DNA from: Oscillospiraceae bacterium
GTDB lineage: Bacteria > Bacillota > Clostridia > Oscillospirales > Ruminococcaceae
Direction: 5' to 3'
Length of the DNA stretch: 50,579 nt
NCBI GenBank assembly: GCA_016291435.1
Contig: JAEEXH010000011.1
Span: forward strand, 1-50,579
A program made the translations under genes and the position numbers. How positions within the stretch are numbered: position 1 is the stretch's first letter; each line of letters begins with the position of its first letter. The notes under the pieces were generated by a model, which had not been told where the DNA came from, made no database searches, and saw only the letters and a program-made list of their open reading frames with translations. Of this stretch, positions 42,890 through 46,809 are shown one piece after another.

Positions 42890-43867
42890 TCAGATCGAAG
42901 TATACGCCGGGTCTGTATTGGCAGCCCGCAGTCTGCTGTCGATCTCCGCGTAGTCGGGCGCTTCCCCGATCACGATGAGCACCGCCTGCTGATCCGCAGC
43001 GGGCTCGAGCGTGAGCTTCTCCTTTGTCATGTTGACGCGGAGCCAGCCGCCCGCGCCGTCGGGCAGGGAGCCCTTGAGCCGCGTGATCTCTCCGCAGGCG
43101 CCGCCGTGCATGATCTCATGCAGAAGCGGCTCCAGCGCTGCACGCGGAATCGCAACATGCAGGAAATAGTGAACGCCCGCCGCGTATTCATCCGGCTGAA
43201 ACTGCTTCACATAGGAAGATGCGCGGTAGCTCGATTCCGAAAGCGCGTCAAGCTCCTCCGGCGTGAGGGCATCCCACTCCTTCGCGAGCACCTGTGCCGC
43301 GGTAAAGCGCCGGTCGCACTGCACCGCTTCCAGCGCACGGTTCAGGTGCGCGAGCACACGCGCTGCCGCCTGCTCCGGCGTTTCCGTGATGCGCGAGAGC
43401 TTGCTGAGCACGAGCTTCCCCGCGCACGCCGCCTCCGACGCAAACAGATAATCGAGCTGCGGCGGGAGATTGTCCGCCGCCTCCGCATCGACGATTGTGA
43501 GGATGCTGCCGATCTCAAACCAGCGGTCGAGCGGGCTGTCGTGCAGCGTGTCGAAGAATTCGTCCATATCGAAGATGCCCGAGGGCTCCAGCAGCACGCG
43601 GTCGAAGTGCTGCATGCCGAGATTGATGAGCTGCGTCTTGAAGCGGCGGCGATGACAGAAGGGGTCATTGCACGCGGCGACCATCGCGAGCTCACAGTTT
43701 TCGCAGGCGAGATCTTTCAGCAGCAGCATATCGACATTCACGGCGCCGAAATCGTTGACAAGGATGGCGATGCGCTGCCCCTTGCCGATAAAGTGCTGCG
43801 CATAGCGGTGCAGGAAGGTCGTTTTCCCCGCGCCGAGCATGCCTGTAATAAGATCAATTTTCGTCAT
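42890..43867 (-). CDS. CobW/G3E family GTPase, variant metal site
   Basis: 325 residues. Walker A ITGMLGAGKTTFLHR, switch VNDFGAVNVD, E-x-SG in LLEPSGIFD and ILTIVDAE fit the G3E/CobW family of metallochaperones. Two family features are changed. The usual CxCC metal motif is absent; the equivalent loop is ENCELAMVAACNDPFCHRR, which could bind metal through Cys and His. The NKxD base-reading motif is SKLS. The C-terminal domain (about 215-320) is CobW_C-like. The promoter carries a GTTAGC-type palindrome shared with the flavodoxin locus, pointing to metal-dependent control. The target metal is unknown. Confidence 0.85.
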   Translation of the reverse strand: MTKIDLITGMLGAGKTTFLHRYAQHFIGKGQRIAILVNDFGAVNVDMLLLKDLACENCELAMVAACNDPFCHRRRFKTQLINLGMQHFDRVLLEPSGIFDMDEFFDTLHDSPLDRWFEIGSILTIVDAEAADNLPPQLDYLFASEAACAGKLVLSKLSRITETPEQAAARVLAHLNRALEAVQCDRRFTAAQVLAKEWDALTPEELDALSESSYRASSYVKQFQPDEYAAGVHYFLHVAIPRAALEPLLHEIMHGGACGEITRLKGSLPDGAGGWLRVNMTKEKLTLEPAADQQAVLIVIGEAPDYAEIDSRLRAANTDPAYTSI

Positions 43868-43890: not shown

Positions 43891-43919
43891 ATTTTAGCAC
43901 ATGCTAACGGATTTGTCAA
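43891..43919 (-). promoter_or_regulatory. cobW-type gene promoter
   Basis: TTGACA (43914-43919), 17-bp spacer, TAAAAT (43891-43896). The palindrome at 43893-43908 covers the -10 and half the spacer. Confidence 0.8.
43893..43908. promoter_or_regulatory. GTTA-N8-TAAC box 1 (operator)
   Basis: Minus strand GTTAGCATGTGCTAAA, matching the palindrome GTTAGCAN-NTGCTAAC in 15 of 16 positions. It overlaps the -10, so a bound protein would block RNA polymerase. Confidence 0.6.
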
Positions 43920-44013
43920 ATGGGGAGGAAGAGGTATCGCCTGACGGCGATGATATATAATGATGGCGCTGCCCTCAAACTCCTGCCGGGGACAGCGATC
44001 CCCGAACCCCCTT

Positions 44014-44047
44014 ATAAAAAAGAGCGCAGAAGAAAAATCCTCTGCGC
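44014..44047 (-). terminator. Terminator of the SHOCT protein gene
   Basis: GCGCAGA (44024-44030) pairs with TCTGCGC (44041-44047) around a 10-nt loop, followed on the minus strand by CTCTTTTTTATA. Lies 11 bp past the stop codon. Confidence 0.8.
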
Positions 44048-44058
44048 ATCTTCCTGTA

Positions 44059-44742
44059 TTACATTCTGGAAAGAATCTCTGCCTTTTTCGCGTCATATTC
44101 CGCCTGCGTGAGCACGCCGTCATCGAGCAGCGATTTCAGCTTGGCGAGCTTGTCGGTGTCATCGCCCGAGGACGCCGCTGCCGCACTCGGCTGACTTTTT
44201 ACCTTTTCCTTGAATGCCCGGAGCTCTGCAAGCGTCCGCTCTGTGAATTCCTGCGCATTCTGCACGCCGAGGAACCGGATAAAGCCCGTTGCGCTGGCAA
44301 TGGCAACCGTTCTGCCGCCGACCAGCTTGTCCGCGATGCCGTCCTTGACGCCGATGCTCGTGATATTCTCAAACGGCAGCTCGACAGATTTACTCCCGAG
44401 CAGTGTTTTCTTCACGCCGGAGATGCCGTTTTCGGTCAGTGTCAGGGTACACTGTTTCGGCGATTTCACCAATACCAGATACATCACCGCGCACAACACG
44501 ACCAATGCTGCAAGTACAATCAGTCCGATGATGCCTTCATCAGTCAGCATGAGACCATGATACCGATCCGCGCTCAAAATGCAGAAGTCGGCAATGCTGC
44601 GATAACGTTCGTAAGAGTCCCCTACGATATGCCGCAAAGGCATAAACAGCACAATCCACGCAGCAAGCAGTACGGCTGCCGCGATAACAAACGGTTTCTG
44701 CATTTTCGGCGCTATCTCCGCACGATAGGATTCCTTGCTCAT
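44059..44742 (-). CDS. PH-like/SHOCT membrane protein
   Basis: 227 residues. Two membrane helices (about 18-36, 72-92) flank a short loop. A bacterial PH-like beta domain follows (about 96-165, CTLTLTENGISGVKKT, LPFENITSIGVKDG). After a Ser/Ala linker the last 28 residues are a SHOCT motif, KLAKLKSLLDDGVLTQAEYD then AKKAEIL. SHOCT segments act in oligomerisation or protein contact. Divergent from the XRE gene, with its promoter covered by two palindromes, so likely repressed by it. AAAGGAG lies 9 bp upstream. Confidence 0.8.
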   Translation of the reverse strand: MSKESYRAEIAPKMQKPFVIAAAVLLAAWIVLFMPLRHIVGDSYERYRSIADFCILSADRYHGLMLTDEGIIGLIVLAALVVLCAVMYLVLVKSPKQCTLTLTENGISGVKKTLLGSKSVELPFENITSIGVKDGIADKLVGGRTVAIASATGFIRFLGVQNAQEFTERTLAELRAFKEKVKSQPSAAAASSGDDTDKLAKLKSLLDDGVLTQAEYDAKKAEILSRM

Positions 44743-44769
44743 ATTTTTCTGCTCCTTTTGCTTTTATGA

Positions 44770-44787
44770 TTAACGGTATACCGTCAA
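44770..44787. promoter_or_regulatory. XRE operator 1
   Basis: TTAACGGTATACCGTCAA, an 18-bp near-perfect palindrome over the expected start site of the SHOCT gene, centred 50 bp from operator 2. Confidence 0.65.
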
Positions 44788-44794
44788 CAATACT

Positions 44795-44823
44795 ATTATA
44801 TCACTTTACATGTGAAAAGTCAA
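44795..44823 (-). promoter_or_regulatory. SHOCT gene promoter
   Basis: TTGACT (44818-44823), 17-bp spacer, TATAAT (44795-44800). The -35 overlaps operator 2; operator 1 lies just downstream of the -10. Confidence 0.8.
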
Positions 44824-44837
44824 CGGTTTACCGTTAA
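44820..44837. promoter_or_regulatory. XRE operator 2
   Basis: TCAACGGTTTACCGTTAA, the same palindrome in opposite orientation. It overlaps the SHOCT -35 on one side and the likely XRE -35 on the other. Confidence 0.65.
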
Positions 44838-44863
44838 TCATTTCTCACAAAAAATGCTATCAT
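44834..44863 (+). promoter_or_regulatory. Weak XRE gene promoter
   Basis: TGCTATCAT offers an extended -10 (TATCAT, 44858-44863). The -35 candidate TTAATC (44834-44839, 18-bp spacer) is the end of operator 2, consistent with autoregulation. Confidence 0.45.
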
Positions 44864-44897
44864 GATTTGTAGAATATCGCAGAAAGGGGCGCTGTTT

Positions 44898-45140
44898 ATG
44901 CGTATTTCCGATGCTGTCGCGGAGCGGATCCTGGAGCTCTGCATGGCGCAGAATATCACCGTCAACAAGCTGGCGACTGTCTCCGGCGTCACGCAGTCCA
45001 CCGTCAACGACATTGTAAACCGCAAAGCAAAGAACATCGGCATTATCACGATCAAGAAGCTCTGCGACGGTCTGGACATCACGATCACGGATTTCTTCGA
45101 CACGGAGCGCTTCCGCAGTCTTGAGCAGGAGCTCTACTGA
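44898..45140 (+). CDS. XRE/Cro-type transcriptional regulator
   Basis: 80 residues from the ATG with AAAGGGG 8 bp upstream. A compact helix-turn-helix: MAQNITVNKLATVSGVTQST, VNDIVNRKAKNIGIITIKKL, CDGLDITITDFFD, the standard HTH_3 layout, ending in a short acidic tail. It is one of only two + strand genes. Its place beside two matching palindromes suggests it represses itself and the divergent SHOCT gene. No separate sensor domain. Confidence 0.9.
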   Translation: MRISDAVAERILELCMAQNITVNKLATVSGVTQSTVNDIVNRKAKNIGIITIKKLCDGLDITITDFFDTERFRSLEQELY

Positions 45141-45145
45141 ACACG

Positions 45146-45179
45146 AATGCCCCCGATACGCCTGGGTATCGGGGGCATT
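45146..45179. terminator. Terminator between converging genes
   Basis: Perfect 14-bp stem (AATGCCCCCGATAC / GTATCGGGGGCATT) with a 6-nt loop, 6 bp after the XRE stop and 29 bp from the flavodoxin stop. No T tract on either side, so it may act by structure or with a factor. Confidence 0.6.
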
Positions 45180-45207
45180 GTGAACACCGTATGCTGTTTT
45201 GCTGCGG

Positions 45208-45615
45208 TCAGCCCGCGAGCTCTGCGCCGAGCGCCTTGAGCTTTGCGAGGTCGTCATCAGAAGGCGCCTCATTCACGATATAGCCCTCATCGCCGACAAG
45301 CGATGCACCCGCTGCCTTCGTGCGCTCTGCCCAGTCGCGCATCCACGCGCCGTCGCCCCAGCCGTAAGAGCCGAAGAGCAGCACCTTCTTGCCGGAGAGT
45401 GCGCTCTCCGCAGATGCGAAGAACGGCTCAAAGGTATCCTCCTCGAGCACCTCATCGCCCATTGCCGGGCAGCCGAATGCGACTGCATCGTAATCTGCGA
45501 CACTGCCGCTGAAATCATCAACGGCGAACAGTTCTGCACCTGCGCCCTCTGCAACGGCGTTCGCCATTGCCTCCGTGTTGCCGGTGCCGCTCCAATAAAT
45601 AACTGCTGTTTTCAT
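45208..45615 (-). CDS. Flavodoxin
   Basis: 135 residues from MKTAVIYWSGTGNTEAMA, the FMN phosphate loop. GCPAMGDEVLEEDTF is the FMN ring region and LLFGSYGWGDGAWMRDW the second loop. A short electron-transfer flavodoxin, often replacing ferredoxin when iron is scarce. GGAGG lies 10 bp upstream. Second gene after DUF2325 (37-bp gap), under the GTTAGC-box promoter. Confidence 0.93.
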   Translation of the reverse strand: MKTAVIYWSGTGNTEAMANAVAEGAGAELFAVDDFSGSVADYDAVAFGCPAMGDEVLEEDTFEPFFASAESALSGKKVLLFGSYGWGDGAWMRDWAERTKAAGASLVGDEGYIVNEAPSDDDLAKLKALGAELAG

Positions 45616-45652
45616 TCCTGTAATTCCTCCATTGATATATTCAGGCAAGCGC

Positions 45653-45934
45653 TCAGTGCTCGAAGGTCTCAAGCAGCTTCTTCAATGCACTGACACTTGC
45701 GCTGTGTACATGCTTCACGGGAATCCCGTGCTTTTCCGAGCGGTTTTTGACACCCGCCAGCATCTTGTGGGAACATGTGCTTGTGAACACCACCATCAGA
45801 TCCGGATATCCGATCTTGTTCTCGAAATCGGCAGGCATCTGTGTAAACACCTTCGATTTCCATTTGAACTGCTTGCAGATATCCTGATACCGTGTGGCCA
45901 TGCGGTCATTGCCGCCGACGATCACGACACTCAT
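45653..45934 (-). CDS. DUF2325 family protein
   Basis: 93 residues from MSVVIVGGNDRMATRYQDIC, with AGGAGG 5 bp upstream. IVGGNDR, DLMVVFTSTCSHKMLAGVKN, and VKHVHSASVSALKKLLE fit DUF2325, a small Rossmann-like domain with a conserved Cys and His. Function unknown; it is commonly found with redox and metal genes. First gene of the flavodoxin operon, with a start-site palindrome. Confidence 0.85.
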   Translation of the reverse strand: MSVVIVGGNDRMATRYQDICKQFKWKSKVFTQMPADFENKIGYPDLMVVFTSTCSHKMLAGVKNRSEKHGIPVKHVHSASVSALKKLLETFEH

Positions 45935-46009
45935 AACATCCTCCTGCATTCTGTGCGGTTATATTCTTTGCATCGGGCGCGTGCGATATGCACGGCCTAT
46001 GCTTCGACA

Positions 46010-46025
46010 GTTACCTACCGCTAAC
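46010..46025. promoter_or_regulatory. GTTA-N8-TAAC box 2 (operator)
   Basis: Plus strand GTTACCTACCGCTAAC. It begins 7 bp downstream of the DUF2325 -10 (minus direction), so it covers the expected transcription start. Confidence 0.6.
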
Positions 46026-46032
46026 TGCAAAA

Positions 46033-46061
46033 AGTATACCATGAATCTGCGGCTTTGTCAA
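46033..46061 (-). promoter_or_regulatory. DUF2325-flavodoxin promoter
   Basis: TTGACA (46056-46061), 17-bp spacer, TATACT (46033-46038): a near-consensus promoter with the operator directly below. Confidence 0.85.
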
Positions 46062-46107
46062 GAAAAAGAACGCCCTTTTTCTGATTTTTCGGCGCATTCG
46101 CCAAACG

Positions 46108-46123
46108 GTTACTCTGCGCTAAC
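46108..46123. promoter_or_regulatory. GTTA-N8-TAAC box 4 (central)
   Basis: Plus strand GTTACTCTGCGCTAAC, about midway between the two divergent -35 boxes (46-49 bp from each). Its halves match box 2 better than boxes 1 and 3. Confidence 0.45.
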
Positions 46124-46172
46124 TCTGTATGTTGCTGTTTTGCATAAATCTGCGGGAATGCCGGAATTTGCC

Positions 46173-46201
46173 TTGACAAAATCCGCGCAGAATGGTATAA
46201 T
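46173..46201 (+). promoter_or_regulatory. DUF3793 promoter
   Basis: TTGACA (46173-46178), 17-bp spacer, TATAAT (46196-46201): consensus in both hexamers. Confidence 0.88.
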
Positions 46202-46209
46202 GTCTTACA

Positions 46210-46225
46210 GTTAGCAAATGATAAC
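46210..46225. promoter_or_regulatory. GTTA-N8-TAAC box 3 (operator)
   Basis: GTTAGCAAATGATAAC begins 8 bp after the -10 and so covers the expected start of the DUF3793 transcript; 15 of 16 positions fit the palindrome. Confidence 0.65.
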
Positions 46226-46242: not shown

Positions 46243-46809
46243 ATGTCCGAGGATGCCATCATCCGGAACTGTGCCCCGACACTCGCCGGGATCAAGACCG
46301 GCAATCTGTTCCGATACAGCTACGCCTGCGCGGATGACATGCGCGAGGCAGTCCGCCGCTGGAACCGTGCGCTGCGGGAGAAGGGCGTGCGGATCCTGCC
46401 GCTGCGCTTCTGCAAAAATCATGCGCTGATCTATGTCTACCGCCCGTCGAAGCTCACCAGCGATCTGCAAAACGCAGATGCCCGCCGGATCCTGCGGCAC
46501 TGCGGCTACTGCACGAATTCCGCCGACATCTGCATCGTGGAGCTCATCCGGCGCCTGCGTGCATCGGGCGATGCCTTTCCGCACGAGATCGGGCTCTTTC
46601 TCGGCTATCCGCCCGAGGATGTTTCAGGCTTCATCGAGCAGAAGGCATGCGGCTATAAATGTGTCGGCTGCTGGAAGGTCTACGGCGACGAGCAGAAATG
46701 CCGTCAGCTATTCGCAAAATATAAAAAATGCACGCGGGTCTATGAAGAACAGCTCAGAAAGGGCGTCTCCGTGCAGAAGATGACAGTCTCATGCAAAAAA
46801 GCATGTTAA
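46243..46809 (+). CDS. DUF3793 family protein
   Basis: 188 residues. The family core is plain: RFCKNHALIYVYRPSKL, and FPHEIGLFLGYPPEDVSGFI, followed by a Cys-rich C-terminal part (KACGYKCVGCWKVYGDEQKC) with a possible metal or Fe-S site. Function unknown; I recall DUF3793 genes beside flavodoxins and iron-transport genes in Firmicutes. AAAGGAGG lies 6 bp upstream. Divergent from the DUF2325-flavodoxin operon, and its promoter bears the same palindrome. Confidence 0.9.
   Translation: MSEDAIIRNCAPTLAGIKTGNLFRYSYACADDMREAVRRWNRALREKGVRILPLRFCKNHALIYVYRPSKLTSDLQNADARRILRHCGYCTNSADICIVELIRRLRASGDAFPHEIGLFLGYPPEDVSGFIEQKACGYKCVGCWKVYGDEQKCRQLFAKYKKCTRVYEEQLRKGVSVQKMTVSCKKAC

Follow-up and report, generated by a model that had tools for sequence, protein, structure and literature searches.

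The stretch of DNA analyzed here, hereafter the window, comprises positions 1 to 50,579 of contig JAEEXH010000011.1 from an Oscillospiraceae bacterium (assembly GCA_016291435.1; 3.16 Mb in 155 contigs, 92.7% complete), in which three promoters, read by eye, are associated with copies of a 16-bp palindrome, GTTAG-N6-CTAAC. The first, a sigma70-type promoter (43891..43919, minus strand; -35 TTGACA at 43914-43919, N17, -10 TAAAAT at 43891-43896), belongs to the gene of a CobW/COG0523-type GTPase of 325 amino acids (42890..43867, minus strand; Pfam cobW, E = 6.8e-21). The second (46033..46061, minus strand; -35 TTGACA at 46056-46061, N17, -10 TATACT at 46033-46038) precedes an operon for a DUF2325 protein (45653..45934, minus strand), whose start was set at the ATG behind AGGAGG and whose Pfam match (DUF2325, E = 3.9e-30) was obtained with the longer frame 45653-45949, and a short-chain flavodoxin (45208..45615, minus strand), which starts at the second codon (ATG) of its frame and reaches 131.4 bits with TIGR01753 (cut-off 123; frame 45208-45672). 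Divergent from it, the third promoter (46173..46201, plus strand; -35 TTGACA at 46173-46178, N17, -10 TATAAT at 46196-46201) belongs to the gene of a DUF3793 protein of 188 amino acids (46243..46809, plus strand; Pfam DUF3793, E = 8e-59; 51-sequence alignment).

Each of these promoters carries a predicted operator with one mismatch to the palindrome. The one of the GTPase gene (43893..43908, GTTAGCATGTGCTAAA on the minus strand) overlaps the -10 box, and those of the DUF2325-flavodoxin promoter (46010..46025, minus strand, GTTAGCGGTAGGTAAC) and the DUF3793 promoter (46210..46225, plus strand, GTTAGCAAATGATAAC) follow the -10 box at a distance of 7 and 8 bp, respectively. A preliminary description of the locus had reported the same geometry, with TTGACA-N17 at all three promoters, and had located the three palindromes correctly, but their number was too low: a fourth copy between the two divergent promoters, the predicted central operator GTTACTCTGCGCTAAC (46108..46123, no strand assigned, one mismatch), had been overlooked. 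It lies 46 and 49 bp from the two divergent -35 boxes.

The proper form of the motif is GTTAG-N6-CTAAC. With at most one mismatch it occurs four times in the window, while shuffled windows contained 0.30 copies on average and none of 100 reached four. The narrower consensus proposed earlier, GTTAGCANNTGCTAAC, was discarded as not significant, since it gave three matches at up to three mismatches and 9 of 100 shuffles did as well.

Orthologous promoters share the palindrome, as the preliminary description would have it. A search with the DUF3793 protein returned 91 relatives, with record titles mostly from Clostridia, and the best 80 loci were kept. Where DUF3793 was the second gene of a DUF2325-DUF3793 operon, the operon head was moved to DUF2325, and four loci with less than 100 bp upstream (L031, L067, L073, and L086) were dropped, which left 76 usable heads (52 DUF3793 and 24 DUF2325). 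Within 250 bp upstream, the motif was found with at most one mismatch at 68 of the 76 heads and exactly at 62; single-base shuffles of the same upstream stretches gave a mean of 0.48 and a maximum of 3 in 50 rounds. The spacer is strict as well: any other length from 0 to 20 gave exact matches at no more than 3 heads, and the next best, N10, reached 18 of 76 with at most one mismatch and 3 of 76 exactly. The 93 exact sites in these DUF3793/DUF2325 upstream stretches yielded the consensus R-GTTAG-Y-N4-R-CTAAC-Y, and 8 of 31 neighboring site pairs were 33-35 bp apart. Among the best 80 of the 91 DUF3793 loci, a flavodoxin gene was also present at 40 and a feo gene at 14 (phmmer). The AlphaFold model of DUF3793 is confident (mean predicted local distance difference test score, pLDDT, 91.4), with no fold match in the PDB at E <= 0.001 and no solved relative by sequence (best E = 0.043). 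To judge from its promoters and neighbors, the physiological setting of DUF3793 would be iron starvation.

In the source genome, 13 of the 17 sites with at most one mismatch lie at promoters or gene starts, and it is the location of the sites, not their total, that carries the signal. Besides the four sites in the window (cobW, DUF2325-flavodoxin, and DUF3793 promoters plus the central site), three exact sites belong to the feoA-feoA-feoB-FeoB_associated operon on contig C16, two behind a TTGACA/TACAAT promoter and one before feoB, and two sites belong to a second feoA(B) locus on contig C4 (FeoA was identified by eye on both contigs, FeoB_associated by Pfam). Two further sites on contig C61 precede the gene of a surface-type protein of 494 amino acids, which by eye begins like a signal peptide and gives a Shr-like match that stays under the cut-off. 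Single sites were found at an operon on contig C83 that includes a ZIP transporter gene, where a second site with two mismatches lies over the -10 box, and at an ATP-binding cassette (ABC) transporter on contig C114; both operons are presumably tied to iron. As in the window, 7 or 8 bp separate the -10 box from the start of a site at feoA on C16, feoA on C4, C61, and C114 (by eye). Of the kinds of genes at which the preliminary description proposed to look for hits, two feoA promoters, feoB, the flavodoxin, and the operon with the ZIP gene are marked. Four places were set aside as probable chance matches or unclear: C52:320 and C83:8216, which lie within reading frames, C79:10570, which is close to a contig end, and C61:36556, which lies in a ribD leader resembling a flavin mononucleotide riboswitch by eye.

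Contig C83 also carries, all on the minus strand (L169 5585-9718), genes for ApbE, NusG domain II, Hpre_diP_synt_I (Gx), AraC, and a P-type ATPase. Since another locus, L029, has an ApbE-NusG-Gx row before DUF3793, the row on C83 may belong to the iron response. The first frame behind the C83 promoter (L169 about 2510-2657) begins, by eye, like an ABC-type ATPase and stops after GAGK, and is apparently a remnant.

The CobW-type GTPase is the least certain member of the regulon, because no site was found upstream of five orthologues (36-56% identity). That the match at 43893 arose by chance, the other sites being real, is a possibility to be taken seriously, although not the one we expect; in L176 the orthologous gene follows the end of a znuA-like gene (by eye), which points to zinc. 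Against chance, the site covers the -10 box of a consensus promoter only 2.1 kb from three other sites, and shuffles give 0.30 sites per whole window. Within the metal-limitation response suggested in the preliminary description, iron is supported by the sites at feo, flavodoxin, and DUF3793 genes and by the regulator data below; the link to cobW, with one site that is missing in the five orthologues, is weak.

The neighbors of the motif were also examined in other genomes. Thirty proteins adjoining exact sites in four motif-rich genomes (G085, G035, G113, and G097) were scanned by Pfam and included FeoA, FeoB, a NEAT protein, ZIP, ABC transporters, and Trep_Strep, as well as DUF3793 in three genomes and DtxR-family proteins in three genomes. 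The same 30 also contained proteins without a plain iron link (enolase, integrase, methyltransferase, AraC, a TetR regulator, an AMP-binding enzyme, and ATC hydrolase), and several had no Pfam match. Among the first 30 motif loci of the class search, feo or DtxR genes were present at 16 and neither at 14 (phmmer). In genome G085, 11 exact sites are gathered within about 33 kb (C36:24500-62000; L235-L236), where the genes include those of DUF3793, a Trep_Strep protein, a DtxR protein, and an ABC transporter; this stretch is perhaps an iron-gene island.

In the source genome, the DtxR DNA-binding model PF01325 has a single match over its cut-off. This DtxR-family protein of 130 amino acids (G000:C56:5195-5584) has the Fe_dep_repress (E = 2.4e-8) and Fe_dep_repr_C (E = 7.1e-15) domains, both over their cut-offs; its dimerization domain ends at residue 120, and the C-terminal SH3-like domain is absent. 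Among 148 genomes of the class Clostridia, a search with it matched 110 at E <= 1e-6, and a close homologue was defined by E <= 1e-20; a strong Fur was defined by a PF01475 match with E <= 1e-33. Both thresholds were chosen after seeing the tables, and 1e-25 and 1e-28 (DtxR) or 1e-30 and 1e-35 (Fur) did not change the picture. The exact motif occurs in 95 of the 148 genomes. The 79 genomes with a DtxR homologue contain 306 exact sites versus 146 in backward-read controls, with at least one site in 71 of them, while the 69 genomes without it contain 51 versus 138, with at least one site in 24. Kinship among the genomes overstates significance at the genome level, and tests at the family level were weaker but agree: at least one site was found in 31 of 34 families with the homologue versus 11 of 27 without, and inside 12 mixed families in 24 of 26 versus 7 of 18. 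Moreover, when 30 loci centered on the best DtxR homologues were inspected, 9 had an exact site within 1.5 kb, and feo genes were present at 8 of these 9; roughly 0.1 site would be expected by chance in the 98 kb covered at about one site per Mb.

The motif itself resembles operators of this family. According to excerpts of PMC8464063, the IdeR box TTAGGTTAGSCTAACCTAA consists of two overlapping TTAG-N6-CTAA units; in crystals, repeats 1 and 3 are occupied by one IdeR dimer and repeats 2 and 4 by the other, and in gel shifts a lone TTAG-N6-CTAA unit binds one IdeR dimer. The motif found here equals one such unit plus an outer G and C. The likeness to DtxR/IdeR boxes noted in the preliminary description therefore holds for the one-dimer half but not for the box center, and a two-dimer 19-bp box was rejected because that center, GTTAG-N1-CTAAC, occurred exactly at 0 of the 76 promoters and with one mismatch at 1 of 76.

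To compare the metal site, 38 proteins of the DtxR family, most of them chosen as best homologues or from motif or DUF3793 loci, were aligned with MntR. In MntR numbering, the Glu99 column holds Cys in 38 of 38 and Glu in none, His77, Glu102, and His103 are invariant in the 38, Glu11 is conserved in 36, and the Asp8 column (the Met10 position of DtxR) is occupied by Asn in 19, Met in 11, and Asp in 8. A review attributes increased Fe2+ selectivity to Met10 and Cys102, positions that in MntR are occupied by Asp or Asn and by Glu, respectively.

The closest published case is EqbA of Streptococcus equi, as described in excerpts of PMC3672683. EqbA lacks the SH3 domain and has Cys104 and Asn13, its printed palindrome contains GTTAGATGTATCTAAC, an exact GTTAG-N6-CTAAC, and it shifts its promoter only with the palindrome present. 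In the eqbA deletion mutant, the level of eqbE transcript was 13-fold higher, and the cells contained nearly twice as much iron.

That the same DtxR-family protein binds the motif and senses manganese, or both metals, is improbable. The idea would suit a protein that retains Asp at the MntR Asp8 position and whose top matches among models and structures are those of MntR, and one class member adjoins a ZIP transporter gene (L128); however, the Cys in place of MntR Glu99 in all 38 proteins is the DtxR/IdeR state, which the review excerpt links to Fe2+ selectivity, feoA, feoB, and the genes of flavodoxin and a NEAT-domain protein are among those with sites, and binding of EqbA, which has the same Cys, is enhanced by Fe2+ or Zn2+ and less by Mn2+ (PMC3672683, excerpts).

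There is very little room for a Fur-family protein binding the palindrome, although a review assigns iron control in low-GC Gram-positive bacteria to Fur, as far as its excerpt goes, and one FUR protein was found in the source genome (assembly 92.7% complete). This sole match adjoins a znuA-like gene (by eye) and is therefore more likely Zur. A strong PF01475 score, which we read as iron-type Fur, was present in 3 of the 79 genomes with a DtxR homologue versus 39 of the 69 without (3 of 34 versus 14 of 27 families), and these 39 genomes contain 17 exact sites versus 98 in the controls. Just as unlikely is binding by the small IclR/MarR-like helix-turn-helix protein of 124 amino acids whose gene follows feoB and the FeoB-associated gene (L028 3785-4159, G000:C16). 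This protein belongs to the organism's own feo operon and has a weak DtxR DNA-binding domain match below cut-off, but is ruled out as a general regulator by its occurrence in 4 of 148 genomes, the own one included (E <= 1e-6), versus 95 with the exact motif.

Two other inverted repeats in the window, AACGGTNNACCGTY at 44772-44785 and 44822-44835 (exact on the plus strand), lie where a gene for a SHOCT/bPH-like protein and one for a small Cro/C1-type helix-turn-helix protein diverge; they are probably the operators of the helix-turn-helix protein.

GTTAG-N6-CTAAC is thus very probably the operator of a short, SH3-less, metal-dependent repressor of the DtxR family that responds to Fe2+, here the 130-amino-acid protein on contig C56. 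The single DtxR-type iron repressor of the preliminary description is supported by both the source-genome and the comparative data. More specifically, the co-occurrence, the Cys ligand, the match to the IdeR half-site, and the operator copy in EqbA suggest that the sites are operators of an EqbA-type iron repressor, apparently with the leading role in iron control in many gut Clostridia. Taken together, the ligand columns, the half-site data on IdeR, and the EqbA experiments make an Fe2+-activated, promoter-blocking repressor the best reading. For binding, metal, direction of control, and additivity, we infer the following course from sequence comparison. When Fe2+ is sufficient, one repressor dimer would sit on each palindrome, contacting TTAG and CTAA 10 bp (one helical turn) apart; a dimer over or just behind the -10 box would block RNA polymerase, and pairs of sites would probably act additively. 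When iron is low, the repressor would be released, and the Feo transporters, the surface protein, flavodoxin, DUF2325, and DUF3793, and probably the CobW-type GTPase as well, would be made. Flavodoxin can replace ferredoxin under iron shortage.

Several observations weigh against the Fe2+-responsive DtxR-family repressor. Over the whole source genome, GTTA-N8-TAAC occurs 15 times versus 19 in the backward-read control, and GTTAG-N6-CTAAC with at most one mismatch 17 times versus 50; because the control exceeds the sites, this total is uninformative. The palindrome was to be doubted if it occurred at random frequency, which is so for the raw counts with at most one mismatch but not for position, orthologous promoters, or exact sites (6 versus 0). 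No site with up to two mismatches was found on the 13.4-kb contig of the dtxR gene itself, whose product has Asp, as MntR does, at the second selectivity position, which leaves a response to manganese some probability. The motif is missing upstream of 8 of the 76 operon heads (L029, L039, L041, L043, L065, L074, L076, and L082). In the class, 8 of the 79 genomes with a DtxR homologue have no exact site, the homologue and a strong Fur occur together in three genomes, and in G097, 11 exact sites (some of them at feoB) coexist with the lack of any DtxR homologue at E <= 1e-6, PF01325 giving at best a partial match in a 228-amino-acid frame. The other genomes with at least three sites and no homologue (G023, G040, G042, and G110) are near their control counts. 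Finally, binding by EqbA partially persists after treatment with ethylenediaminetetraacetic acid (PMC3672683, excerpts).

The predicted operator and its regulon are real and widespread, and they are foreshadowed by one published case, EqbA. The preliminary description knew of no account of this exact regulon; the motif is already printed exactly in the EqbA operator (PMC3672683, excerpts), while for Clostridia no DtxR-type iron regulon was found in the literature searched (most subscription journals not covered). It is likely, in our view, that over much of the Clostridia the role of main iron regulator has passed from Fur to an SH3-less, Cys-type DtxR, whose standard operator is the single-dimer IdeR half, often paired. 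As far as their excerpts go, a 2023 review on IdeR states both that low-GC Gram-positives use Fur for iron with DtxR limited to manganese and that the use of half-sites elsewhere is left to be investigated, and according to a 2020 review the SH3-less members reported do not respond to Fe2+ in vivo; TroR of Treponema denticola is described as retaining its metal specificity after truncation of the SH3 domain. We argue that EqbA and the Clostridial data speak against both the Fur-only view of iron and the view that SH3-less members do not respond to Fe2+. If the replacement of Fur holds, the rule for low-GC Gram-positives would be overturned, the question of half-sites would be answered by a one-dimer standard operator in a large group, and DUF3793 and DUF2325 would be defined as iron-starvation proteins. 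The motif names a testable regulator and gives both protein families a physiological setting. Iron shapes the gut microbiota, and a 16-bp word that can be scanned in any genome would predict part of the iron regulon in uncultured species.

Compared with known systems, EqbA, encoded on ICESe2, is the nearest: according to its published description, in excerpt, it shares with the Clostridial protein the absence of SH3, the Cys at the DtxR Cys102 position, the control of iron acquisition (predicted for the Clostridia), and the GTTAG-N6-CTAAC operator, and the Clostridial proteins carry the features of an EqbA-type subclass (no SH3, Cys-type site, and this operator). EqbA, however, has one operator in a 36-bp palindrome at one siderophore-type cluster on a mobile element, whereas the Clostridia have separate 16-bp sites, placed over the -10 box or downstream of it, at many operons. 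IdeR/DtxR of Actinobacteria have in common with the Clostridial system the TTAG-N6-CTAA half, ligands of the Cys102/Glu105/His106 type, and a box over the start site or -10, but use a 19-bp two-dimer box, an SH3-like domain, and Met10, in contrast to single-dimer sites, no SH3, and Asn, Met, or Asp (PMC8464063 and PMC10317159, both in excerpt). MntR of Bacillus subtilis and E. coli agrees with the Clostridial proteins in size, domain make-up, and best structure matches, while it has Glu99 where all 38 have Cys, and the Clostridial sites lie at iron genes. The Fur regulon of low-GC Gram-positives has a similar logic and similar targets, e.g., Feo and flavodoxin, but depends on a different protein family and motif, and a strong Fur accompanies the Clostridial DtxR homologue in only 3 of 79 genomes.

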